Positions 1,195-51,469 of a DNA stretch of 64,000 nt are shown in pieces. The translations under genes were made by a program, and so were the position numbers. The DNA is from Starkeya sp. ORNL1 (GTDB lineage Bacteria > Pseudomonadota > Alphaproteobacteria > Rhizobiales > Xanthobacteraceae): positions 1,054,001 to 1,118,000 of the forward strand of contig NZ_CP048834.1 in assembly GCF_012971745.1 (NCBI RefSeq). Direction: 5' to 3'. A model generated the notes under the pieces. That model ran no database searches. It was not told the origin of the DNA and saw nothing but the letters and a program-made list of their open reading frames with translations. Numbering within the stretch: the first letter of the stretch is position 1; the number at the start of each line of letters is the position of its first letter.

Positions 1195-2942
1195 GTCCGC
1201 TCCGTGGCCATTTCGTCCGCCCCGGCGAACTGGGTGTCGTGAAGGCGGCGATAGATGCCGGGGCCGGCGATCAGGTCGCCGTGGCGACCCTGTTCGGCGA
1301 TGCCGCCATCGGTCACCACCACGATGCGGTCGGCATTGCGGATGGTGGCGAGGCGGTGGGCGATCACCAGCGTGGTACGCCCTTCCGACAGCGCGGCGAG
1401 CGACTGCTGGATCTCGCGTTCGGTCTCGGTGTCGAGCGCCGAGGTCGCCTCGTCGAGTATCAGGATCGGCGGGTCCTTGAGGAAGATGCGGGCGATGGCG
1501 ACGCGCTGCTTCTGCCCGCCGGAAAGCTTCACGCCGCGCTCGCCGACAATGGTGTCGAGCCCGGCCGGCAGGCCGGCCACCATGACGTCGAGCCGGGCGC
1601 GGTGCACCGCCTCCGCGATCTCGGCCTCGGTGGCGTCGAGCCGGCCATAGGCGATGTTGTCGCGCAGCGTGCCGGCGAACAGGAACACGTCCTGCTGCAC
1701 GATGCCGATATGGGCGCGCAGCGAGGCCAGCGTCAGGTCGCGGATGTCCACGCCGTCAATGCTGATGCGCCCGGCGCTCGGCTCGTAGAAGCGCGGCAGC
1801 AGCGAACAGATGGTGGTCTTGCCGGCGCCTGACGGGCCGACGAACGCCACCGTCTCGCCGGCGCGGATGGTGAGGTCGAGCCCGCGCAGCACGAGCGAGG
1901 CGGCGCCGCCATAGCCGAAGCTCACCTGCTCGTAGCGGATCGCGTCGCGCAGCCCGGTCATCTCGGTCGCCTGCGGGCGGTCGGCGATATCGGCCTTGGT
2001 CGCCAAGAGGTCGAGATAGGAGCGGAAGCCGGCAATGCCCTTGGGATAGATCTCGATGATGGCGTTGATCTTCTCGATCGGCCGGAAGAACACGCCGACC
2101 AGCAGCAGGAAGCCGATGAAGCCGCCATTCGACAGGTCGCCGCGGATGACGAACCAAGTGCCGGCAACCATCACCACCATCTGCGTGAGCCGCATGCCGA
2201 GATAGGACAGCGAGGCATTGGCGGCCATGATGCGATAGGCGGCGAGCTTGGTCTCGCGGTAGCGCGCATTGTCGTGGGCGAACAGCGCGCGCTCATGGTC
2301 CTCATTGCCGAACGCCTGCACCACGCGCATGCCCCCGACATTCTCCTCCAGCCGCGCATTGAAGTCGCCCACGCGGGCGAACAGCGCGCGGAAATTGTGC
2401 GTCATCCGTCCGCCATAGTGGCTGGTGAACCAGGCGGTGACCGGCACCACGGCGAAGGTGATGAGCGCCAGCGGCACGTTCACCGTCAACATCAGGGCGA
2501 AGGCGCCGAGGAAGGTCATCACCGCGATGAAGGCGTCTTCCGGACCGTGATGGGCGACCTCGCCCACCTCCTCCAGATTCTTGGTGATGCGGGCGACGAG
2601 ATGCCCGGTCTTGTGGTTGTCGTAGAAACTGAAGGACAGCTTCTGCAGATGGTCGAAGCTGCGGCGGCGCATCTCGGTCTCGATATTGATGCCGAGCATG
2701 TGCCCCCAATAGGTGACGATCGCCATCAGCCCGGCATTCAGCACATAGATCACCAGCAGCGCAGCAGCCGCCGCGGCGATCAGGCTCCAATTCTGCTCGG
2801 GCAGCAGTTCGTCGATGAACAGCTTCACCGCCATGGGGAAGCCGAGTTCCAGCAGACCCGAGATCACCGCGCAGGAGAAGTCGAGCAGGAACAGGCCCTT
2901 ATAGGGGGCGTAATAGGCGAAGAACTGCTTCAGGATGGTCAT
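1191..2942 (-). CDS. ABC exporter, fused permease and ATPase
   Basis: 583 residues from the chosen ATG. The reading frame stays open upstream to 3083, but the extension enters a palindromic repeat and reads as non-coding, while MTILKQFFAYY is a typical start for this family. Residues 1-310 form a six-helix ABC exporter membrane domain. The C-terminal ATPase has Walker A GPSGAGKTT, signature LSGGQKQR and Walker B ILILDEATSAL. It works as a homo- or heterodimer in the inner membrane exporting a lipid, peptide or drug-like substrate; MsbA/multidrug-type exporters are the closest class. Its coupling with the MBL hydrolase gene suggests a shared role that I cannot name. Confidence 0.9.
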   Translation of the reverse strand: MTILKQFFAYYAPYKGLFLLDFSCAVISGLLELGFPMAVKLFIDELLPEQNWSLIAAAAAALLVIYVLNAGLMAIVTYWGHMLGINIETEMRRRSFDHLQKLSFSFYDNHKTGHLVARITKNLEEVGEVAHHGPEDAFIAVMTFLGAFALMLTVNVPLALITFAVVPVTAWFTSHYGGRMTHNFRALFARVGDFNARLEENVGGMRVVQAFGNEDHERALFAHDNARYRETKLAAYRIMAANASLSYLGMRLTQMVVMVAGTWFVIRGDLSNGGFIGFLLLVGVFFRPIEKINAIIEIYPKGIAGFRSYLDLLATKADIADRPQATEMTGLRDAIRYEQVSFGYGGAASLVLRGLDLTIRAGETVAFVGPSGAGKTTICSLLPRFYEPSAGRISIDGVDIRDLTLASLRAHIGIVQQDVFLFAGTLRDNIAYGRLDATEAEIAEAVHRARLDVMVAGLPAGLDTIVGERGVKLSGGQKQRVAIARIFLKDPPILILDEATSALDTETEREIQQSLAALSEGRTTLVIAHRLATIRNADRIVVVTDGGIAEQGRHGDLIAGPGIYRRLHDTQFAGADEMATERT

Positions 2943-3048
2943 TTTCACGTGCATCGGGCAATGGGCCGTCCGCCGATCGGCGAGGCCGTGGCGAGGGTAT
3001 ATTTCACAAAGCCGCTCCGGTGTCATGACATCGGGATGGCGGAACTTG

Positions 3049-3160
3049 GCTTCAGCATCCTTCGAGGCCGCCTGCGGCGGCACCTCAGGATGACGTGGTT
3101 CTTATAAACGCGACGTCATCCTGAGGTGCGAGCGTAGCGAGCCTCGAAGGATGCTGAAGC
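3049..3160. repeat. Family R1 palindromic repeat, inverted pair
   Basis: Two units in opposite orientation, each with outer arms CATCCTT..AGGATG-like and inner CCTC..GAGG. The left unit has a perfect inner stem GCCGCC-TGC-GGCGGC (3067-3081); the right unit has GCGAGC-N3-GCGAGC, which does not pair. It lies between the ABC exporter and the AraC gene. It is one of six R1 loci in the window. Confidence 0.85.
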
Positions 3161-3176
3161 CAAGCCACAGCCCTGC

Positions 3177-4145
3177 TCAAGCACCGCCCTGGCATTGCTT
3201 GCGGAACTGCGAGGGCGGCAGGCCGAAGCGGCGGCGGAAGCTGCGGTTGAAGTAAGAGAGGTCGCCGAATCCGGCCTCATAGGCGATGGCGCTGACCGAG
3301 CGCAACGCGCCCTCGCCGCGCCGCTCCAGCATGGCCCGCGCCACTTCCAGCCGCTGCTCCAGCACATAGGCGGTGAAGGTGGTGGCCTCCGCCTCGAACA
3401 GCTTCTGCACATAGCGCGGCGTGATGCCGTGCGCCTCGGCGATGGTCTCCACCGAGAGATCGCGGCGAGCGAGTTCGCGGCCGATATGATCCTTCAGCGT
3501 GGCGAGGCGGGCGGCAGGGTTCGGTGCGCGCTCGTGCGCGCCGTCCAGCCCGAACAGCACGCCGGCGAGGTCGCGTATGTGGTTGCCGGCGAGCCGGGCA
3601 TGGCGCTCGCTCTCCAGCGGGATCATGCCCTGCATCAGCGCGCCGGCGTAGTGCGCGAGCAGCAGCAGCCGGTTGTCGTTCGCGGATGCCGGCCGCAGCA
3701 GCAGCCCGTCGCGATGCGCGCCGCGGGCGACGGCCGGCGCGGAGATGCGCAGATGGTCGACCCGTACCGGCTTGGTGGAGTCATATTCGAAAGGCTCATC
3801 CAGCGTGAGCAAGGCAGCGTCGCCGGCCGAGATCACCAGTTCGCGTCCACCCTGGCGAACCGGCATGGCACCGCCGACCGGGCGCAGCAGCAGCACCTCC
3901 CCTGCCGGTTCGCTCTCCGCGTGCTCGGCGTGCCGGAATCGCGCAGCGACGCTGAAGCAACTGGCAAGCAGCGCACCGGGCAGCGCGCAATGCACGATCC
4001 GGCCCTTGAACAGCGCGCCTTCCGCCACCTCGATCTCGATGCCCGCCATCATCCCGGCAAAGGCGCTGCGGAAGGCGTCGACCCGTTGCGCAGCCGGGAA
4101 ATGAGAGCTTTCGAACCAGGCCGGCTGGTAAGGCGCATGCATCAT
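3177..4145 (-). CDS. AraC-family transcriptional regulator
   Basis: 322 residues. Residues 1-200 form a cupin-like sensory half of the AraC_binding_2 type. Residues about 215-320 hold the two helix-turn-helix AraC DNA-binding domain, ending with the family hallmark GFGDLSYFNRSFRRRFG. It is divergent from the TonB receptor gene (187-bp gap), the usual position for a regulator of a siderophore receptor, as with PchR and FptA in Pseudomonas. Regulation of that receptor is therefore inferred; the ligand is unknown. The start codon is overlapped by a 13-bp inverted repeat that could mediate autoregulation. Confidence 0.88.
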   Translation of the reverse strand: MMHAPYQPAWFESSHFPAAQRVDAFRSAFAGMMAGIEIEVAEGALFKGRIVHCALPGALLASCFSVAARFRHAEHAESEPAGEVLLLRPVGGAMPVRQGGRELVISAGDAALLTLDEPFEYDSTKPVRVDHLRISAPAVARGAHRDGLLLRPASANDNRLLLLAHYAGALMQGMIPLESERHARLAGNHIRDLAGVLFGLDGAHERAPNPAARLATLKDHIGRELARRDLSVETIAEAHGITPRYVQKLFEAEATTFTAYVLEQRLEVARAMLERRGEGALRSVSAIAYEAGFGDLSYFNRSFRRRFGLPPSQFRKQCQGGA

Positions 4146-15275: not shown

Positions 15276-15521
15276 ATGAAGGAACTCCAGCTTCGGGACG
15301 CCAAAGCCGGCTTTTCCGCGGTTATCGAGGCGGCAGAGCGCGGGGAACCGACGACCATCACCAAGCATGGCCGTCCTGCCGCGGTCGTCGTTTCCTATGA
15401 GGAATGGAATCGGCTTCGCCGCCAACTGCCGGATTTTGCAGAATTGCTCCTTGCGGTTCCCTCGCTCGATGAGGATGACGTGCCGAAACGCCGCCCCGCC
15501 CGCATGATGTCATCCGATTGA
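15276..15521 (+). CDS. Phd/YefM-family antitoxin
   Basis: 81 residues. The N-terminus (MKELQLRDAKAGFSAVIEAAERGEP) and the HGRPAAVVVSYEEW segment are typical of Phd/YefM antitoxins, which bind their own promoter and neutralise the toxin with a flexible C-terminus. Its stop overlaps the toxin ATG (TGATG). GTCAT repeats upstream (15246-15250, 15255-15259) with ATGAC at 15269-15273 may be part of the operator. Confidence 0.88.
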   Translation: MKELQLRDAKAGFSAVIEAAERGEPTTITKHGRPAAVVVSYEEWNRLRRQLPDFAELLLAVPSLDEDDVPKRRPARMMSSD

Positions 15522-15958
15522 TGTCCGGCTATCTACTCGACACCAATGCAATTTCCCTGCTCGCCCCTGGTCAAGAGGCGAGCGATGCAGCCGGATTCCG
15601 GGCGTGGGTGGGCGAGCGTGGGGGTGAATTGTTTCTGTCGGCGATCACAATCGCCGAATTGCAGGCGGGGGTTTCTCGCCTGGAAAGAAAGGGCGCAACG
15701 CGCAAGGCCGAAGCGCTATCGCGCTGGCTGCATCTTGTGCTGGAGCTCTATGCCCCCCGCATTCTTGCCCTTGACGCCCATGCCGCGCTTGAAACCGGTC
15801 GCCTGCTTGATCGGTCGATCGGTGCTGGCGGTGAGCCCGGCTTCGAGGACGCCGCGATCGCAGCGATCGCGGCGGTCCATGAGTTGGTTGTGGTGACGGC
15901 CAATACCCGTCACTTCAAGCTGTTCGGCGTCCCGTTCATGGCGCCGCCGGCGGCATGA
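15521..15958 (+). CDS. vapC: VapC-type PIN-domain toxin
   Basis: 145 residues from the ATG at 15521. PIN-domain ribonuclease: first acidic residue in LLDTNAIS, Glu in AITIAELQAG, and the Asp cluster in GFEDAAIAAIA followed by VVTANTRHFK. Such toxins cleave specific RNAs when the antitoxin is degraded. It is the second gene of the Phd-VapC pair. Convergent with the gene for a secreted protein that ends 6 bp downstream. Confidence 0.88.
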   Translation: MSGYLLDTNAISLLAPGQEASDAAGFRAWVGERGGELFLSAITIAELQAGVSRLERKGATRKAEALSRWLHLVLELYAPRILALDAHAALETGRLLDRSIGAGGEPGFEDAAIAAIAAVHELVVVTANTRHFKLFGVPFMAPPAA

Positions 15959-41038: not shown

Positions 41039-41689
41039 TCAGACACCGGCGAGAGCCGGGCTCTTCGAACCATGCGGCACCAGGCCGCCGGCCTGCTCGA
41101 TGAAGCGCGCCACGTCCTCGACGCCCTGGCCCGCCCGCACATTGGCGAAGACGAAAGGACGGCGTCCGCGCATGCGCTGCGAATCCCGGTCCATCACCTC
41201 CAGCGAGGCGCCGACATAGGGCGCGAGGTCGATCTTGTTGATGACGAGGAGGTCCGAGCGGGTGATGCCGGGACCGCCCTTGCGCGGGATCTTCTCCCCC
41301 GCCGAAACGTCGATGACGTAGATGGTGATGTCGGCAAGCTCGGGCGAGAAGGTCGCGGCGAGATTGTCGCCGCCGGATTCGATCAGGATGAGGTCGAGCT
41401 TCGGGAAGCGCGCGCGCATGTCCGCGATCGCCGCAAGGTTCGCAGAGGCGTCCTCGCGGATCGCGGTGTGCGGGCAGCCGCCGGTCTCCACCCCCATGAT
41501 GCGCTCGGCGGGCAGCGCCCCGGCGCGGGTGAGGATTTCGGCATCCTCCTTGGTGTAGATATCGTTGGTGATGGCGCAGAGGTCGTAGCGCTCGCGGAAT
41601 GTCCGGCACAGCGCTTCCATCAGCGCGGTCTTGCCCGAGCCCACCGGCCCGCCAATGCCGACCCGCAGCGGCCCGCTCGTCTCCATCAT
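41039..41689 (-). CDS. ureG: Urease accessory GTPase
   Basis: 216 residues; GGGAGAAGG stands directly before a double ATG. P-loop [11 protein letters not shown], the metal-binding CPH in [13 protein letters not shown], and [12 protein letters not shown] for guanine recognition. It hydrolyses GTP to drive nickel delivery into apo-urease with UreD and UreF. Last gene of the urea operon, 17 bp after ureF. Confidence 0.95.
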
Positions 41690-41706: not shown

Positions 41707-42420
41707 TCAGCTTCGGAACAGTCTCGTATATTGCGTCTCGTGGCGCATCGAGGCGATATCGGAGCGCAGCGCAGCGCAGGCGATCGCATCGAGCGGCACG
41801 TCGGGCGCCGCCTGAGCCGCGGCCCGCACCTCGGCGACGAGGCCGGCCAGCACGCGGTTGCCGTCGGTCTGGCCCAGCGGCACCAGGCGCACCGCGGCGG
41901 AGACCAGATTGGCGGCCACCGCGGTGAGGAAAGCCGAGAGTGTGGAGGCAAGCGGCAGGCCATGTGCCGCCGCGCTGACGCCGACCGCCACCGGATAGGC
42001 GACGCGTCCGTCCCAGGCGTGCGCCAGCCGGTCGAGCCTGGGCGCCGGCCAGGCGGCGCGGGTCGCGGTCATGAAGGCGTCGCCCTGGTTCAGCGTCTCC
42101 ATCTGCCGCTCGCGCGAGGGTGCGAACGCCGCCGCCAGTTCCGCCACTTCGCGCAGATCGGCGTCCGAACCATCGCGCAGTGCGCGCCAGGCAAGAGCGA
42201 GCAGCACCGCATCGCAGAACGGCCCGCCGTGCCGGATCAGGTCGGAGACCCAATCCATCAGCGTCGCCGCATCGCGGATGTCCCCGGTCTCCACTGCCCA
42301 TTCGAGCCCGTGCGAATAGGCGAAGGCGCCGACCGGATAGGCCGGCGACAGCCAGACCAGCAGCGGCAGCAGGTCGACGGCGTCCTGGTGCCCGCCGGCC
42401 TCAGCCGTGCCGGTGGGCAT
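41707..42420 (-). CDS. ureF: Urease accessory protein
   Basis: 237 residues from the ATG at 42420; the open frame continues upstream only because it is antiphase to the His-repeat of ureE. The start [22 protein letters not shown] is diagnostic for UreF. All-helical protein that forms the UreD-UreF-UreG complex and gates GTP-driven nickel insertion. It overlaps the 3' end of ureE by 20 bp, so translation is coupled. Confidence 0.94.
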
Positions 42421-43132
42421 GGTCGTGGTGGTGATCGTCGTGGTCGTGGCCGCGCTTGTGGTCATGGTCGTGCACGTGGATCACGTCGCGGGCCGGCTCG
42501 TGAGCATGTTTGTGGTCGTGGTCGTGGCCATGATCGTGCCCATGATCATGGTCGTGACCATGGTGCGCGTGGTCGTGGTGCGCGTGATCGTGGTGCGCGT
42601 GATCGTGGTGGCTGTGGCCGCAGCCGCATGCTTCACCGTGCTCATGATGATCGTGGGCATGGTGTTCATGTGCGTGATGCTCGTGGCCGTGGGCTTCCGC
42701 CGCCTCATAGGCGCCGCCTTCCGGCTCGAACGCGGCTTCCACCACCGACACGGTGGCGCCGAGACCGCGCGCCATCTCTTCCAGCACGTTGTCGCGCGCA
42801 ATGCGGATGCGGTCGGCCAGCAACTCCGCCGCCACGTGGCGATTGCCGAGATGCCAGGCGAGGCGGGCGAGGTGATGGGCGTCGCGGGCGACGATCTCCG
42901 CCACCGGCTCCTCGGCCGCGACCACGGCGACGATCCGGCCGTCATCGAGCTTCAGGCCGTCGCCATGCTTCAGGTGGGTCGCCTCAGTGAGGTCCAGCAG
43001 GAAGGCTACATCGCCCTCCCCGCGCATGGCGATGCGGCGGCGGTGGCGGCCATCATGCGGCAGCACCACGCGGTCGGCGGCGCTCGCCGCATTCCAGGTG
43101 CCGGCGGGAAGGACCTCATTGGCGCGGATCAT
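42401..43132 (-). CDS. ureE: Urease nickel chaperone with very long His tail
   Basis: 243 residues. Residues 1-140 are the standard UreE fold (VVLPHDGRHRRRIAM, DLTEATHLKHGDGLKL, HLARLAWHLGNRH). From about 148 to the end the chain is a His/Asp/Glu/Ala-rich tail with about 45 His residues and a CGCG pair, far longer than the short His tail of the enteric protein. It should bind many nickel ions and act as a store as well as a donor to urease. It starts 38 bp after ureC. Confidence 0.94.
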   Translation of the reverse strand: MIRANEVLPAGTWNAASAADRVVLPHDGRHRRRIAMRGEGDVAFLLDLTEATHLKHGDGLKLDDGRIVAVVAAEEPVAEIVARDAHHLARLAWHLGNRHVAAELLADRIRIARDNVLEEMARGLGATVSVVEAAFEPEGGAYEAAEAHGHEHHAHEHHAHDHHEHGEACGCGHSHHDHAHHDHAHHDHAHHGHDHDHGHDHGHDHDHKHAHEPARDVIHVHDHDHKRGHDHDDHHHDHAHRHG

Positions 43133-43170: not shown

Positions 43171-44883
<1,713 letters not shown>

Positions 44884-44893
44884 GGGGGTCTCG

Positions 44894-45289
44894 TCACATC
44901 ACGGGTGAGAAGGCGGGATGCGTGGCGGCTTTTCGATCGAACGTATAGGTCGTCGCACACTCGAGATCGGCATTGATCTCGGCGATGAAGTAGTCGGCGA
45001 AGTGAGCGGATCCATCTTCCCATGCGGCCATGGCGCGGCGGATCGCCCCTTCATGCGAGAAGGTCAGGTCGTCCTGATCGAGCAGCGATTGCAGGACCGA
45101 CAGCACATCCGCCTTGCTCCAGCCGAGCGTGCGACGCAGCACCCACACCATCTCGTGGACGACGACCGCATTGACGAGCACGGGCGTGTCGGGAGCGATG
45201 GATTCGAGTAGTTGCTGTGCCTTCCCGCTTTCGATCGGGCTGTCCTGCAGGATCAGACGCAGCAGGACATTGGTGTCGAACCCGATCAT
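44894..45289 (-). CDS. VapC-type PIN toxin within the urease operon
   Basis: 131 residues. PIN fold: Asp in [11 protein letters not shown], Glu in [12 protein letters not shown], Asp in [11 protein letters not shown] and the last acidic position in YTFDRKAA. It is a likely RNase toxin. Its ATG overlaps the antitoxin stop by four bases (ATGA). It lies between ureAB and ureC in the same orientation, so it would be co-transcribed with the urease genes. Confidence 0.9.
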
Positions 45290-45570
45290 GGCTTCTTGCC
45301 CAGCCCGCTCAAATAGCGTTCCCGCATCGCTTCGTCGATCGCCGCGTCGATATCCTCGTCCGTCAGCGGCCGCTCCAGCTTCACCGGCTCGCGCGAGCGC
45401 ACCCAGTCGAGGAAACGCTTCGGCTTGCGCGGCGCCACCTCGGCGGTGCCGTCGTCGCGGAGTACCACGTGGAGCTTGTCGCCGGCCTTCATGTTCCAGC
45501 GCTTGCGCAGTTCGGCCGGCAAGGTGAACTGGCCCTTGCTGGTGAGGGTGATGTCAGTCTCGTAAGGCAT
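45286..45570 (-). CDS. AbrB/MazE-type antitoxin within the urease operon
   Basis: 94 residues. The swapped-hairpin AbrB/SpoVT DNA-binding domain is seen in TLTSKGQFTLPAELRKRWNMKAGDKL. The C-terminal 45 residues are acidic and flexible, suited to toxin binding. A Shine-Dalgarno AAGGAG stands 8 bases before the ATG. An 11-bp inverted repeat flanks the Shine-Dalgarno, one arm being the first 11 bases of the gene, and could be the autoregulatory operator. Confidence 0.9.
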   Translation of the reverse strand: MPYETDITLTSKGQFTLPAELRKRWNMKAGDKLHVVLRDDGTAEVAPRKPKRFLDWVRSREPVKLERPLTDEDIDAAIDEAMRERYLSGLGKKP

Positions 45571-45606
45571 GACGCAATCTCCTTACTTTGAAGATATGCC
45601 TTACGA
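45560..45606. promoter_or_regulatory. Candidate antitoxin operator, 11-bp inverted repeat
   Basis: TCGTAAGGCAT (45560-45570) and ATGCCTTACGA (45596-45606) are exact inverted copies with a 25-bp spacer containing the antitoxin Shine-Dalgarno. A further GCCTT-CCGC-AAGGC palindrome is at 45609-45622 in the 55-bp gap after ureAB. Confidence 0.6.
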
Positions 45607-45625
45607 CAGCCTTCCGCAAGGCAAC

Positions 45626-46246
45626 TCACAGCTTCCCCATCACGTCCTGCCGGAACCCATAGACCTCGCGCTTGCCGGCGAGCGCGACCAGCGTCACCTC
45701 GCGGGACTGGCCGGGCTCGAAGCGCACCGCGGTGCCGGAGGGGATGGCGAGGCGCATGCCGCGCGCCTTGTCCCGCTCGAAGGCGAGCGCCGGGTTGGTC
45801 TCGAAGAAATGGTAATGGCTGCCGACCTGGATCGGCCGGTCGCCGGTATTGGCGACCGTGAGCGCGACGGTCTCGCGGCCGGCGAGCAGCTCGATCTCGC
45901 CGTCCTCCACCAGCACCTCGCCGGGCACGACGGCGGCATGCGCGCCGCGGATCGGCTCATGCACCGTCACCAGCTTGGTGCCATCCGGGAAGGTCGCCTC
46001 GACCTGCACGTCATGGATGATCTCGGCGATGCCGGGCATCACCTGCTCGGCGGTCAGCACGGTGGCGCCAAGGGTCATCAGTTCGGCGACGCTCTTGCCG
46101 TCGCGCGCGCCCTCGATGACGACATCGGTGATCAGCGCGATCGCCTCCGGATGGTTGAGCTTCACGCCGCGCTCCAACCGGCGGCGCGCCACCATGGCAG
46201 CCATGGCGACCAGCAGCTTGTCCTTCTCACGGGGGCTCAGATTCAT
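45626..46246 (-). CDS. ureAB: Fused urease gamma-beta subunit
   Basis: 206 residues joining the gamma subunit (1-100: [29 protein letters not shown] region, [31 protein letters not shown]) to the beta subunit (105-206: [33 protein letters not shown]). In most bacteria these are two genes, ureA and ureB; a fusion is best known from Helicobacter. Here the linker is very short. It forms the non-catalytic shell of urease with UreC. Confidence 0.94.
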
Positions 46247-46290
46247 CGGGACTCTCCGGAAACAGGCGGATCAGAAGCGGAAAACAGGCA

Positions 46291-47163
46291 TCAGGAATGC
46301 CAGATGCGCGGCGGGTCAGCTATGCCCAATTCGCCGATGATGCGGCGCAGCGCCTTGTCCAGTACCGCGCTGTCGCGCGCCAGCAGGCGAACCGAAAGCA
46401 TGCCGTCCCAGGCGCTGGCGCCGGCCTCGAGCGTGGGGGCGAGATCATCGGGCAGACCGAGCGCAGCGCGCACCGCCTCCAGCCGCGCCTCGGCATCGGG
46501 GGCCACCAGCAGAACCGTGGCAAAGGCGGCCGCCCCCAGAGCAATGCTGGGGCGATCGAGCAGCTTTGCTATGTCGCCGCCGAGATCGAGCCCATCGGCA
46601 TAGATCAGCCGGCCATTGCGACGGATGCGCCAGCGATCATGGAGCGCCCCGGTCGCAAAGCGCTCGCCCCGCGCGGCGCGGCCGAGCGCGACCGGTTCCA
46701 CCAGAAGCAGGCGGGCGCCCTCCCTGACCTCGGCGGAGATGGTGCGCTCCACCCTCGCCTGATCGAAGAGGATGGTCCATTGCGGCAGCCAGTCGAGGCT
46801 GGCGCCGGGCTCGACCAGGAGATCGACGTCGATCTTCGAGACCGCGCCGTCGGAGCGATAGATCTTCTCCGCCGCCTGCGTCGTCGCCACCAGATGGGCA
46901 CCGGCGCGGGCGATCATCTGCGTCGCCACCGCGTCGCCGCCCGCGATCCCTCCGCCGGTATTGATCAGCACCGCCTCCAGCGCGGCACCGCGCTTGCCGG
47001 AGCGCGGGAAACGGGCGCGGCTCGGCCCGGCCTCCTCCAGCCGGCCGAGCACGGTGCGCTCACCCAGCGCCCTCGCCTCGACCAGCACCCGGCCATGCGA
47101 GCGCAAGCCGGCGGGAACGCGCTCGATCGGAGAGAAATCAGACGGCAATGCGGTTACGTACAT
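46291..47163 (-). CDS. ureD: Urease accessory protein
   Basis: 290 residues. INTGGGIAGGD, TTQAAEKIYRSDGA and LPQWTILFDQARVERTI are conserved UreD/UreH segments. It binds apo-urease and, with UreF and UreG, channels nickel to the active site. The start overlaps the 3' end of urtE by 26 bp, so uptake and enzyme genes are one transcription unit. Confidence 0.93.
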   Translation of the reverse strand: MYVTALPSDFSPIERVPAGLRSHGRVLVEARALGERTVLGRLEEAGPSRARFPRSGKRGAALEAVLINTGGGIAGGDAVATQMIARAGAHLVATTQAAEKIYRSDGAVSKIDVDLLVEPGASLDWLPQWTILFDQARVERTISAEVREGARLLLVEPVALGRAARGERFATGALHDRWRIRRNGRLIYADGLDLGGDIAKLLDRPSIALGAAAFATVLLVAPDAEARLEAVRAALGLPDDLAPTLEAGASAWDGMLSVRLLARDSAVLDKALRRIIGELGIADPPRIWHS

Positions 47164-47833
47164 CCGGGTCCTCGAGCGCCGCGCCGTCGCCCGACATCAC
47201 CACCGCGCCGCGCTCCATCACGATGAAATGGTCGGCAAGTTCCTTGGCGAAGTCAAAATACTGCTCGACCAGCACGATCGCCATGTCGCCCTTGGAACGC
47301 AGATAACGGATGGCGTTGCCGATGTCCTTGATGATGGAGGGCTGGATGCCCTCGGTCGGCTCGTCCAGCACCAGCACCTTGGGCCGCATCACCAGTGCGC
47401 GGCCGATGGCGAGCTGCTGCTGCTGGCCGCCGGAGAGGTCGCCGCCACGCCGGCGCAGCATGGAATCCAGCACCGGAAACAGCGAGAACACATCGTCCGG
47501 TATCTCGCGCTCGCTGCGCTTCAGCGGCGCGAAGCCGGTCTCCAGATTTTCCGCCACGGTGAGGAGCGGAAAGATCTCGCGGCCCTGCGGCACGAAGGCG
47601 ATGCCGCGGCGCGCGCGCTCGGCCGGCGCCAGGGTGGTGATGTCGGCGCCATTGAAATGGATGGCCCCCCTGGCGATCGGCGCCTGGCCGACAATGGCGC
47701 GCATCAGGCTGGTCTTGCCGACACCATTGCGCCCGAGCACGCACGTGACCTTGCCGGCCTCGGCCTTCAGCGAGACCCCGCGCAGTGCCTGGGCGGCGCC
47801 GTAGAACAGATTGACGTCCTTGACTTCGAGCAT
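47138..47833 (-). CDS. urtE: Urea ABC transporter ATPase
   Basis: 231 residues, LivF-like. Walker A GRNGVGKTS, signature LSGGQQQQLAIG, Walker B VLVLDEPTEGIQPS. One of the two ATPases of the urea importer. Begins 6 bp after the urtD stop. Confidence 0.94.
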   Translation of the reverse strand: MLEVKDVNLFYGAAQALRGVSLKAEAGKVTCVLGRNGVGKTSLMRAIVGQAPIARGAIHFNGADITTLAPAERARRGIAFVPQGREIFPLLTVAENLETGFAPLKRSEREIPDDVFSLFPVLDSMLRRRGGDLSGGQQQQLAIGRALVMRPKVLVLDEPTEGIQPSIIKDIGNAIRYLRSKGDMAIVLVEQYFDFAKELADHFIVMERGAVVMSGDGAALEDPDVRNRIAV

Positions 47834-47839
47834 GATGCG

Positions 47840-48649
47840 TCAGCGCCCCAGATACACTTCGATGACGCGCTCATTGGCGCTGACCTGGTCGAGCGAGCCT
47901 TCCGCCAGCACCGAGCCTTCGTGCAGGCACATCACGCGCACGCCGAGATCACGCACGAAGGTCATGTCGTGCTCGACCACAACCACGGAGTGCCCGTTAT
48001 CGTGGATCGAGCGCAGCAATTCCGCGGTCTGCGCGGTCTCGGCATCGGTCATGCCGGCGACCGGCTCGTCGACGAGAAGCAGCTTCGGGTCCTGCGCCAG
48101 CAACATGCCGATCTCCAGCCACTGCTTCTGGCCATGCGAGAGCGCGCCGCCCAGGCGGTTGCGGTGATCCGAGAGCTTGATGGTGTGGAAGATCTCGTCG
48201 ATGCGGTCGCGCTGCGCACCGGTTTCCTTCTGGAAGATATTGGCGAGCGCGCCGCGCTGGCCCTTCAGGGCGAGGCGCAGATTGTCGATCACCGTGTGGC
48301 TCTCGAACACCGTCGGCTTCTGGAACTTGCGGCCGATGCCGAGCGTGCAGATCTCGGTCTCGTCGAGCTTGGTGAGGTCGGTGGTGCCGGCGAACAATAC
48401 GTCGCCGCGGTCCGGCCGGGTCTTGCCGGTGATGACGTCCATCATCGTGGTCTTGCCGGCGCCGTTCGGGCCGATGATGGCCCGCATCTCGCCGGGATCG
48501 ACGGTGAAGGACAGCGCGTTCAAGGCTCGGAAGCCATCGAAGGTGACGGTCACGTCGTTGAGATAGAGCAGCGCCTCGGTGAGGCTCCTGTCGGAGATGG
48601 CCCTGGCCTCGTGCTCTGCGGGCGGCTCCAGCGTATCAATGTCGCTCAT
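47840..48649 (-). CDS. urtD: Urea ABC transporter ATPase
   Basis: 269 residues from the ATG at 48649, preceded by AGGAGG. LivG-like ATPase: Walker A GPNGAGKTT, signature LSHGQKQWLEIG and Walker B LLLVDEPVAGM. Partner of UrtE. The frame open to 48700 overlaps urtC and is not used. Confidence 0.94.
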   Translation of the reverse strand: MSDIDTLEPPAEHEARAISDRSLTEALLYLNDVTVTFDGFRALNALSFTVDPGEMRAIIGPNGAGKTTMMDVITGKTRPDRGDVLFAGTTDLTKLDETEICTLGIGRKFQKPTVFESHTVIDNLRLALKGQRGALANIFQKETGAQRDRIDEIFHTIKLSDHRNRLGGALSHGQKQWLEIGMLLAQDPKLLLVDEPVAGMTDAETAQTAELLRSIHDNGHSVVVVEHDMTFVRDLGVRVMCLHEGSVLAEGSLDQVSANERVIEVYLGR

Positions 48650-48659
48650 GTCCGCCTCC

Positions 48660-49856
48660 TCACTCGGCCGGCTTGGGTTCGGCGACCTCGGGCAGCACAT
48701 CGGGCGATGGCAAGCGCTTGGCCCGCCATTCCAGGAAGGTGCCGAGGATGCCCTTTGGCAGGAACAGCGTCACCGCGACGAACAGGCCGCCCAGCATGAA
48801 CAGCCAGTAGGGCGCGAGGAAGCCGGAGGTGAAATAGGTCTTGGCGTAGTTCACCAGAACGGCGCCAAGCGCCGCGCCGGCGAGCGTGCCGCGTCCCCCA
48901 ACCGCCACCCAGACGATGATCTCGATGGAGTTGGCGGGGGAGAACTCGCTCGGATTGATGATGCCGACCTGCGGCACATAGAGCGCCCCGGCAATGCCGG
49001 CGAGGCAGGCCGAGACCACGAAGGCGACCAGCTTGTAGTTTTCGGCGCGATAGCCGGTGAAGCGCACCCGGGTCTCGGCGTCGCGGATGGCGATCAGCAC
49101 CTTGCCGAAATGCGAGCGCACCAGGAACCGGCACAGCACATAGCCGCCGGCGAGCGCGAGCGCGGAGAGCGCAAACAGCACGGCGCGGGTACCGTCGGCC
49201 TGGATGTTGAAGCCGAGGATATCCTTGAAGTCGGTCAGGCCGTTATTGCCGCCAAAGCCCATGTCGTTGCGGAAGAAGGCCAGCAGCAAGGCGAAGGTCA
49301 TCGCCTGGGTGATGATCGACAGATAGACGCCGGTGACGCGCGAGCGGAAGGCGAACCAGCCGAACACCAGAGCGAGGATGCCCGGCGCCAGCAGCACCAT
49401 GATCACGGCGAAGGGGAACCAGTCGAAGCCGTACCAGAACCAGGGCAGTTCCTTCCAGTTCAGGAACACCATGAAGTCCGGCAGCACCGGATCGCCATAG
49501 ACGCCGCGGGTCCCGATCTGGCGCATCAGGTACATGCCCATCGCATAGCCGCCGAGCGCGAAGAAGGCGCCGTGGCCGAGCGAGAGGATGCCGACATAGC
49601 CCCAGATCAGATCGACTGAGAGCGCGAGCAGCGCGTAGCAGAGATATTTGCCGAGCAGCGCCATCACATAGGTCGGCACGTGCAGGGCGGAGTCCGGCGC
49701 GGTGAACAGGTTCAGCGCCGGGATGAGGATGGCCGCGCCGATGACGATGGCGAGGAAGATGCGGCCGCTCGTGCCGAGCAGCGCCGGAATCGGCGTGTCG
49801 AGCGGGCCTGTGCCGGGCGTATTCATGCTGGGCGTACTGGTGCTGGGCGTACTCAT
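48660..49856 (-). CDS. urtC: Urea ABC transporter permease
   Basis: 398 residues, LivM-like, about ten membrane helices. DLIWGYVGILSLGHGAFFALGGYAMGMYLM is diagnostic of UrtC/LivM. The first 20 residues are a Ser/Thr/Pro-rich stretch encoded by a short imperfect DNA repeat (TGCTGGGCGTACT-like). Its ATG overlaps the urtB stop (ATGA). Confidence 0.94.
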   Translation of the reverse strand: MSTPSTSTPSMNTPGTGPLDTPIPALLGTSGRIFLAIVIGAAILIPALNLFTAPDSALHVPTYVMALLGKYLCYALLALSVDLIWGYVGILSLGHGAFFALGGYAMGMYLMRQIGTRGVYGDPVLPDFMVFLNWKELPWFWYGFDWFPFAVIMVLLAPGILALVFGWFAFRSRVTGVYLSIITQAMTFALLLAFFRNDMGFGGNNGLTDFKDILGFNIQADGTRAVLFALSALALAGGYVLCRFLVRSHFGKVLIAIRDAETRVRFTGYRAENYKLVAFVVSACLAGIAGALYVPQVGIINPSEFSPANSIEIIVWVAVGGRGTLAGAALGAVLVNYAKTYFTSGFLAPYWLFMLGGLFVAVTLFLPKGILGTFLEWRAKRLPSPDVLPEVAEPKPAE

Positions 49857-51469
49857 GCCTCGATCGCCCTTCCCTTCAGCGCGAACAGGCCGCGCGGTCG
49901 CTTCTGGATGAACAGGATGACGATCACCAGCAGCGCGATCTTGCCGAGCACTGCGCCGGCATAGGGCTCCAGCAGCTTGTTGGCGATGCCGAGCGACATG
50001 GCGCCGACCAGCGTGCCCCAGAGATTGCCGACGCCGCCGAACACCACGACCAGGAAGCTGTCGATGATGTAGCTCTGGCCGAGATTGGGCGACACGTTAT
50101 CGATCTGCGACAGCGCCACGCCCGCCATGCCGGCAATGCCGGAGCCGAGGCCGAAGGTGGCGGCGTCGACCCAGTTGGTGCGGATGCCCATGGAGGCGGC
50201 CATGCGGCGGTTCTGCGTCACCGCGCGCATCTCCAGCCCGATGCGGGTCAGCCGCAGCACGCCCATCAGCGCGATGAACACCAGGATGGCGAAGACAATG
50301 ATCCACATCCGGCCATAGGTGACCGAGAGATGGCCGATATCGAAGGTGCCGGACATCCAACTCGGCGCGCCGACCTCGCGGTTGTTGGCGCCGAATATGG
50401 TGCGGATGGCCTGCTGCAGGATCAGCGAGATGCCCCATGTGGCGAGCAGGGTTTCCAGCGCGCGGCCATAGAGGAAACGGATCACGGTGCGCTCGATGAT
50501 CACGCCGATCAGCGCGGTGAAGATGAAGGCGAGCGGGATGGCGATGATGAGCGACCAGTCGAACAAGCCGGGCGCATAGGAGCGGATCGCCTCCTGCACC
50601 ACGAAAGTGGTGTAGGCGCCGAGCATCACCATCTCGCCATGGGCCATGTTGATGACGCCCATCACGCCGAAGGTGATGGCGAGGCCGATGGCGGCCAGCA
50701 GCAGCACCGAGCCGAGCGAGACGCCGTACCAGACATTCTGCGCCACGCCCCAGACCGCGAGGTTGCGGTCGATGCCGGCAATGGCGGTTGCCGCGGCGGA
50801 CTTCACCGTGGCCGGGGTGTCGGCCGGCAGGTTGCGCAGAATGGCGAGCGCGTCCTGGTCGCCGGCATCGGCGATGGTGGCGACCGCGGCGACGCGCTCG
50901 GCCTCAGGCGCGGCAGGATTACCGATGATGAGCGCCGCGCGGGCCTCCTCCATCGCCGCCTTCACCTTCGGATCGGTCTCGCGGGCGAGCGCGGTCTGCA
51001 ATGCGGGCAACGCCGCGACATCGCGCGACTTGAACACCGAGATCGCAGCCTCAAGCCGCTTGGCCGGGTCCGGCGCCATCAGCGAGAGCGCGCCACTGGC
51101 GGCCTCGATGGCGCCGCGCACCCGGTTATTGGCACGAACCGTCTTCAGGCTCGCCGCATCGACGGTCGCCGGGGCGCCGGTGGTGGCGTCGATCAACGCA
51201 CCGTCGGTGCCCTTGATGTAGACGAGCTTGCTCGCCGGATCGAACAGCAGCCGGCCGTCGCCCAGCGCCGCGACCACGCTGCCGGCGCGCTCATTGCCGC
51301 TGGTGACCAGCAGGCCAAGCCCGGCGAAGGTGTCGGCGTAGGAGTCGGTGGTGAATTTCGCGAGGGCGTCCTCATAGGGACCCGCCTTGGCATCGGACGG
51401 CAGGAGGGCCGCAAACAGCGCCAGCCCCAAAAACAGGGCGGCGGCGAAGCTCGATGGAAGCCGCATCAC
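49853..51469 (-). CDS. urtB: Urea ABC transporter permease with periplasmic N-domain
   Basis: 538 residues. A signal-like helix and about 220 residues of Ala-rich helical sequence (ALQTALARETDPKVKAAMEE region, HEAT-like) precede a LivH-like permease domain starting near AITFGVMGVINMAHGEMVMLGAY. Such an N-terminal extension is usual for UrtB. Partner of UrtC. Preceded by a hairpin that separates it from urtA. Confidence 0.93.
   Translation of the reverse strand: MMRLPSSFAAALFLGLALFAALLPSDAKAGPYEDALAKFTTDSYADTFAGLGLLVTSGNERAGSVVAALGDGRLLFDPASKLVYIKGTDGALIDATTGAPATVDAASLKTVRANNRVRGAIEAASGALSLMAPDPAKRLEAAISVFKSRDVAALPALQTALARETDPKVKAAMEEARAALIIGNPAAPEAERVAAVATIADAGDQDALAILRNLPADTPATVKSAAATAIAGIDRNLAVWGVAQNVWYGVSLGSVLLLAAIGLAITFGVMGVINMAHGEMVMLGAYTTFVVQEAIRSYAPGLFDWSLIIAIPLAFIFTALIGVIIERTVIRFLYGRALETLLATWGISLILQQAIRTIFGANNREVGAPSWMSGTFDIGHLSVTYGRMWIIVFAILVFIALMGVLRLTRIGLEMRAVTQNRRMAASMGIRTNWVDAATFGLGSGIAGMAGVALSQIDNVSPNLGQSYIIDSFLVVVFGGVGNLWGTLVGAMSLGIANKLLEPYAGAVLGKIALLVIVILFIQKRPRGLFALKGRAIEA

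Follow-up and report, generated by a model that had tools for sequence, protein, structure and literature searches.

In Starkeya sp. ORNL1, a toxin-antitoxin (TA) pair lies between two genes of the urease operon, and it is likely that this pair is an ordinary VapBC module that resides, and is repeatedly exchanged, in an order-wide cargo site between ureB and ureC, where it would repress itself and be kept by its own selection. The pair can be filed as a predicted member of the VapBC group in an unusual niche that spans the order.

A VapBC-type pair within the urease gene run

The window discussed here is a stretch of 64,000 nucleotides (positions 1,054,001-1,118,000 of the 6.29-Mb, single-contig genome), to which all coordinates below refer. 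On its minus strand the genes follow the order urtB, urtC, urtD, urtE, putative ureD, ureAB, antitoxin, toxin, ureC, ureE, putative ureF and ureG:

47138..51469, minus strand: urtE, urtD, urtC and urtB, the urea ABC transporter, directly upstream (TIGR03410, TIGR03411, TIGR03408 and TIGR03409, above cut-offs)
46291..47163, minus strand: putative ureD, named from its position (no NCBIfam match at E 1e-20)
45626..46246, minus strand: ureAB, fused urease gamma and beta subunits, 206 aa (Pfam PF00547 and PF00699; NCBIfam PRK13192, bifunctional gamma/beta)
45571..45625, minus strand: leader of 55 bp from the ureAB stop to the antitoxin start (sequence, GC content, comparison with genome G025)
45286..45570, minus strand: antitoxin, 94 aa, with a MazE/SpoVT/AbrB-fold DNA-binding N-terminus and a C-terminal tail (PF04014, TIGR01439, alignment A2)
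44894..45289, minus strand: VapC-type PIN-domain toxin, 131 aa, with acidic residues D5, E46, D99 and D118 (PF01850, alignment A3, AlphaFold2)
43171..44883, minus strand: ureC, urease alpha subunit, 570 aa (TIGR01792, 978.7 bits)
42401..43132, minus strand: ureE with a long histidine-rich C-terminus (matches UreE models, with scores below the equivalog cut-offs)
41707..42465, minus strand: putative ureF, named from its position (no NCBIfam match at E 1e-20)
41039..41671, minus strand: ureG (TIGR00101, 342.1 bits)

The products of ureAB and ureC score far above the Pfam cut-offs, and a search of the whole genome located a PIN gene at the same spot between them. The antitoxin stop and toxin start share 4 bp (ATGA), and 10 bp separate the toxin end from the ureC ATG; the reading frames and Pfam matches thus agree with the first-pass annotation, which had placed an AbrB-type antitoxin and a VapC-type toxin between ureAB and ureC, on the same strand and at that distance. 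A second, unrelated pair is present on the plus strand of the window (15276-15958), where an 81-aa reading frame, Phd/YefM-like by eye, is followed by a PIN-domain frame (PIN match at 15530-15916).

The toxin passes the PF01850 PIN threshold (29.9 bits, cut-off 23.6), and the antitoxin passes that of PF04014, MazE_antitoxin (33.8 bits, cut-off 24.7), and scores above the cut-off of NCBIfam TIGR01439 (33.1 bits); searches of the toxin against NCBIfam gave no match at E 0.001. Among the 28 toxins of alignment A3, from which a truncated toxin and near copies were left out, D5, E46 and D118 are kept in all and D99 in 27, residues which we take to be the conserved acidic positions of PIN domains. 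The AlphaFold2 model of the toxin is confident (pLDDT 96.9). A PIN toxin with its acidic residues, an overlapping upstream antitoxin gene and an N-terminal DNA-binding domain in the antitoxin are all found, as in VapBC pairs, and on these grounds the pair belongs to the VapBC kind of type II toxin-antitoxin modules, with predicted toxicity and neutralization. Protein searches yielded at least 3472 homologs among 7999 scored candidates, with PF01850 present in the best 120 of the 3472. Sequence searches of the PDB returned PcrIIC1 as the only match to the toxin profile A1 (8wmm, E 8.6e-8), and AbrB-family regulators and SpoVT as matches to the antitoxin profile A2. A role as a known anti-phage system was rejected, since neither protein matched the PADLOC anti-phage models at E 0.001 and 50,697 phage records held no match to the pair.

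Ten pairs of linked relatives gave dN/dS values of 0.09-0.27 for the toxin and 0.03-0.25 for the antitoxin by a crude Nei-Gojobori estimate (custom script), which indicates that related pairs are under purifying selection. The ORNL1 pair is more than a chance arrangement, because other genera have homologous pairs in the same position, and dN/dS in such pairs lies well below 1.

The architecture has a characterized counterpart in the plasmid-borne VapBC of Shigella flexneri, in which, according to the available portion of the report, a SpoVT/AbrB-type VapB is paired with the PIN toxin VapC and the complex binds two operator sites overlapping the -10 and -35 elements (PMC3384007). As described there, the two systems share the N-terminal SpoVT/AbrB domain (PF04014) of the antitoxin and the PIN toxin; the Shigella pair differs in being carried on a plasmid rather than within a urease gene run, and its operator sequences are different by eye. 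Since S. flexneri VapBC was absent at E 0.001 from the PDB matches to both profiles, the resemblance is one of architecture only. Plasmid-borne VapC proteins with an antitoxin of the AbrB/MazE/SpoVT or PrlF family are also recorded in PLSDB; they are of the same toxin kind and have the same neighbor where annotated, and identity to the ORNL1 toxin is 31.5-39.3% in the best 30 of 45 records. Of three such records examined, one had annotated neighbors (pSymB of Sinorhizobium meliloti Ak57), with no urease genes among them.

The ureB-ureC gap in the genus, family, order and class

The first-pass annotation held that standard urease operons have nothing between these genes, and suggested comparing related loci for presence or absence of the pair. 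In the genus, ureC was found in 30 of 30 genomes, the UreAB-UreC gap measures 44-81 bp in 28, and the pair occurs in two, ORNL1 and G025, the latter being its nearest relative by UreC (97%). Here and below, G and L are handles for genomes and loci, and g and f for genera and families.

The family is Xanthobacteraceae (NCBI order Hyphomicrobiales) by one named record, JASHQO010000360.1, which contains the whole of L201 of genome G103. The toxin search over 198 genomes of the family recovered 12 loci of other genera between ureB and ureC. The ureB-ureC stretch was taken in 158 family genomes (30 of the genus and 128 others), three of which lacked ureB in the stretch, leaving 155 gaps; a further 21 family genomes with any ureC match, weak and partial ones included, stand outside this count. 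The gap is shorter than 150 bp in 78 and at least 150 bp long in 77, which hold a complete pair in 14 genomes of 11 genera, an antitoxin remnant without toxin in six (genera g23 and g32) and other contents in 57. Representatives of these other contents match Pfam GFA, HD, patatin and DUF559; models built from representatives assign GFA alone to 21 gaps and HD to eight, and leave 23 without assignment. In two loci (L040 and L045) the pair lies upstream of a GFA gene. L106, L115, L148, L178 and the g24 loci have patatin-like, HD-domain and DUF559 genes in this gap. Outside the count, G179 has a gap of about 480 bp with no match to the pair. Between ureA and ureB, too, a good many family genomes have a long gap, of about 360-770 bp.

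In the order sample of 297 genomes, toxin profile A1 matched 63 and ureC 221, weak matches included, and at least 22, ORNL1 included, have the toxin upstream of ureC at a distance of no more than about 540 bp; these span nine families (f1, f11, f16, f20, f28, f29, f30, f35 and f45). This number is a lower limit, as positions were compared by hand, with tblastn for fetched loci, and scoring was limited to the top candidates of each genome; for G369 and G320, where ureB was not found just upstream, linkage means closeness to ureC alone. In L223 of G298, the ureC that follows the pair seems to be divided between two reading frames (tblastn pieces at 1913-2158 and 2155-3396). Related pairs nested among the linked toxins in the toxin tree also occur in genomes without a ureC match (L203 of G086 and L204 of G044), the L204 toxin having H in place of D5.

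At the class level, alignment A3 matched 39 of 357 genomes and ureC 129, weak matches included, and none of the 29 toxin loci fetched from the 39 matched genomes had urease genes within 1.5 kb. In other alphaproteobacterial orders, urease operons share the ureB-ureC gene order, and UreC of the fetched loci is 74-81% identical, but unlike that of ORNL1 their gap is at most 61 bp; such a gap was found at class level in 27 of the 28 best loci, the exception being L318 (G329), which belongs to the same order as ORNL1.

The idea that nothing stands between these genes is therefore sound for the genus (28 of 30) and the best class-level loci (27 of 28) and fails for the family, where 77 of 155 gaps are long, and the suggested comparison finds the pair in 14 of 155 family genomes and 2 of 30 in the genus. 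A unique recent insertion in ORNL1 is ruled out by the family and order searches, which found pairs elsewhere, and the notion of a lone insertion gives way to a gap that holds pairs repeatedly. As judged from these comparisons, the ureB-ureC gap is a cargo site within the family and the order, which suggests a long-lived niche for TA modules inside a nitrogen-metabolism operon and not a one-off accident.

Replacement and decay of the pair

ORNL1 and G025 are 93% identical in UreAB and 97% in UreC, and 46% in the toxin; their antitoxins are 96% identical over codons 1-50 and 64% from codon 51 on. Synonymous divergence follows the same course, with dS values of 0.29 for ureAB, 0.30 for ureC, 0.49 for the antitoxin start, 0.80 for the antitoxin end and 1.07 for the toxin, and eight neighboring urt and ure genes range from 0.25 to 0.59, ureD being the highest (0.59). 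Fast protein evolution is unlikely as the sole cause of the toxin difference, because dS is raised too (1.07 vs 0.25-0.59 in the flanks). We read this pattern, which consists of divergence along one alignment, as replacement of the toxin and the toxin-binding half of the antitoxin while the DNA-binding half stayed; the dN/dS of this comparison (0.48 for the toxin and 0.22 for the antitoxin) is likewise read as that of a replaced allele. A further case is provided by family f35, in which L243 and L227 are 97% identical in UreC and 93% in UreB, and 29% in the toxin and 31% in the antitoxin, and L227 and L229 are 89% identical in UreC, 82% in the toxin and 77% in the antitoxin.

The toxin tree (32 linked toxins, leaving out G286, G438 and the truncated G078, and 23 unlinked ones; 133 columns, with 11 of 52 inner branches open) is in conflict with that of UreC. 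Groups of the UreC tree (four f35 rows, support 100/99; f11, 91/88; f28 without L220, 89/91) are rejected for the toxins by AU tests, with p values of 0.0012, 0.0013 and 0.0088, respectively; these groups were picked after both trees had been seen, and L221 of f35 stayed outside the f35 test since its UreC groups with f1. This conflict rules out simple vertical descent with UreC, and on the evidence of the trees and paired comparisons alleles are replaced at the same spot.

These data also bear on the possibility that the gap is merely permissive and has received independent insertions, again and again, from a general VapBC pool, with no lasting association with urease. In line with this view, a single clade of all linked toxins is weakly rejected (AU p 0.032; five changes of the 'linked' label), the gap holds many kinds of cargo, and related toxins reside on plasmids (45 records, all below 60% identity) and in other chromosomal places. 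However, linked toxins cluster far above expectation, the five changes comparing with 17.7 in shuffled labels and none of 500 shuffles being as low; the antitoxin starts 42-72 nt past the end of ureB in 33 of 36 leaders; and the fetched class-level toxin loci are all unlinked. ORNL1 and G025 share both leader and antitoxin N-terminus, which speaks for one resident altered in place, and independent insertion is, on balance, a doubtful explanation, even if it is the likeliest rival of the resident, exchanged module favored here.

The pair also decays. Four g23 genomes (L074, L078, L080 and L090) keep an orphan 62-aa DNA-binding part of the antitoxin between ureB and ureC, with two CCTTAC copies upstream and dN/dS values against L074 of 0.04, 0.02 and 0.00; the g32 remnant is less conserved (0.22). 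Toxin searches in the six remnant genomes gave no match, the G078 toxin is without its N-terminus, and the G438 match covers model positions 45-130 only, so that the toxin is missing or cut short while the urease genes stay.

Control of the pair and its relation to urease

The leader is poorer in GC than the window (49.1% vs 66.6%), and it contains, together with the first antitoxin codons, a set of candidate operator half-sites:

45616..45623, minus strand: half-site-like TGCCTTGC, one base off TGCCTTAC, also in G025 (by eye)
45599..45604, minus strand: operator-like half-site GTAAGG (half-site counts)
45581..45586, minus strand: operator-like half-site GTAAGG, overlapping the probable ribosome-binding AAGGAG (half-site counts)
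45562..45567, minus strand: inverse half-site, reading CCTTAC on this strand, within the opening codons of the antitoxin (half-site counts)

Three of the six GTAAGG copies of the window fall within 45562-45604. In the ORNL1 genome the paired half-site pattern occurs once and a reversed control pattern twice; the ORNL1 site taken alone is for that reason not significant genome-wide, and a genome-wide half-site regulon was rejected. The comparison covered 33 linked leaders (L088, L222 and L241 having been dropped for unsuitable start calls), which hold 64 copies of GTAAGG/CCTTAC vs 1.29 expected from dinucleotide shuffles, with two or more in 27 of 33, or 18 of 22 after thinning of near relatives, and a spacing of 18-20 bp in 27 of 36 intervals. 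The copy adjoining the start codon may be partly a ribosome-binding site, which cannot explain the half-sites as a whole, because 40 copies, spread over 28 of the 33 leaders, precede the start by more than 20 nt. The 79 short gaps (3899 bp) contain no GTAAGG/CCTTAC, and five copies occur in the 33,358 bp of the 56 gaps that have other contents. No exact half-site was found in five of the 33 leaders (L221, L226, L227, L229 and L230), and L234 has a single copy; outside the 33, L216 has three, L231 two and G286 two near the start, and L222, L224, L241 and the G438 gap have none. Since 11 of 23 unlinked pairs carry two or more half-sites, these belong to the kind of pair and not to urease. A sigma-70 promoter spacing seen by eye in the leader, TTGCGG-N17-TATCTT, was not backed by the sigma-70 scan, which found no promoter in the ORNL1 leader.

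VapBC pairs repress their own promoter through operators of this kind. As the half-sites recur, regularly spaced, in most related leaders, it is probable that the pairs regulate themselves through these candidate operators. The first-pass annotation had expected co-transcription to tie toxin supply to urease expression. Its first part is compatible with the layout, and a terminator scan of 44600-47400 found one terminator-like site, upstream of ureAB (46301-46287) and at chance level; dependence of toxin supply on urease expression alone is not supported, the recurring half-sites pointing to probable control of the pair's own.

These observations can be joined into one explanation. A VapBC-type (type II) TA module whose antitoxin has the MazE/AbrB fold is resident in the ureB-ureC gap, the order's cargo site inside the urease operon. 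By analogy with its family, the N-terminal domain of the antitoxin would bind the GTAAGG repeats that closely precede its gene, and its C-terminal tail would bind and block the PIN-domain RNase, with transcription coming from a self-repressed internal promoter and from operon read-through. The pair would be kept by selection on itself; in some lineages it has decayed, leaving a remnant of the antitoxin or a toxin cut short, and other alleles have taken its place at the same spot, probably through homologous recombination in the conserved urease genes on either side.

The most testable alternative is regulatory: the antitoxin, with or without the toxin, would act as an internal repressor that sets the UreC:UreAB ratio or couples urease to growth. 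NtrPR (VapBC4) and VapBC10 of Sinorhizobium meliloti, which like the ORNL1 pair are VapBC pairs of a Hyphomicrobiales bacterium, affect nitrogen fixation in nodules, and mutants with inactivated NtrPR and VapBC5 toxins fix nitrogen better, as stated in the available part of the report (PMC10945364); NtrPR and VapBC10 are not placed in a urease operon in that part, and are likened to the ORNL1 pair by description. The half-sites do lie inside the gene run and upstream of ureC, and the alternative is strengthened by the g23 remnant, in which the DNA-binding part is conserved with its upstream motifs and no toxin is found. Yet the 78 family genomes with a short gap have no pair, the half-sites are shared with unlinked pairs, and the g32 remnant is less conserved, so that a regulatory role is on the whole unlikely. 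Comparable odds, well short of even, are given to a bolder proposal, in which the gap would be a dedicated allelic TA locus across the order: incompatible pairs would swap by recombination through the urease flanks, operons would compete as poison-antidote alleles, and the DNA-binding part of the antitoxin would be domesticated in some lineages as an internal urease regulator.

The weakest explanation is that of addiction, in which loss of the operon would remove a short-lived antitoxin and free the toxin, making the cell dependent on its urease operon: the position of the pair amid a one-strand urt/ure run, 10 bp from ureC, the purifying selection on such pairs and the recurrence of the association over the order fit it, but it is rendered improbable by the 28 genus genomes that keep ureC without the pair, by the retention of urease genes where the toxin is missing (six genomes) or truncated (G078, G438), by the GFA, HD-domain, patatin-like and DUF559 genes that the same gap accepts, by the predicted operator of the pair's own, and by the presence of such pairs on plasmids and elsewhere in chromosomes. 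Addiction is possible as a side effect, and is not needed for the explanation of a self-maintained, exchanged VapBC module.

Chromosomal TA pairs are mostly viewed as scattered and mobile, without a fixed home, and older work has dealt with extra reading frames within rhizobial urease operons. Titles and abstracts from a literature coverage that most subscription journals fall outside contained no TA pair between urease genes, which is weak evidence of novelty. What the present comparison adds is one TA kind that several families share at one and the same position in a core operon of nitrogen metabolism, whose specificity half can be exchanged with the DNA-binding half retained, and of which sometimes only a conserved DNA-binding remnant is left. 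This natural series of empty, paired, swapped and orphan loci would make the question of why chromosomes keep TA pairs, be it selfishness, addiction or regulation, testable at one defined site and with a single measurable output, urease activity.
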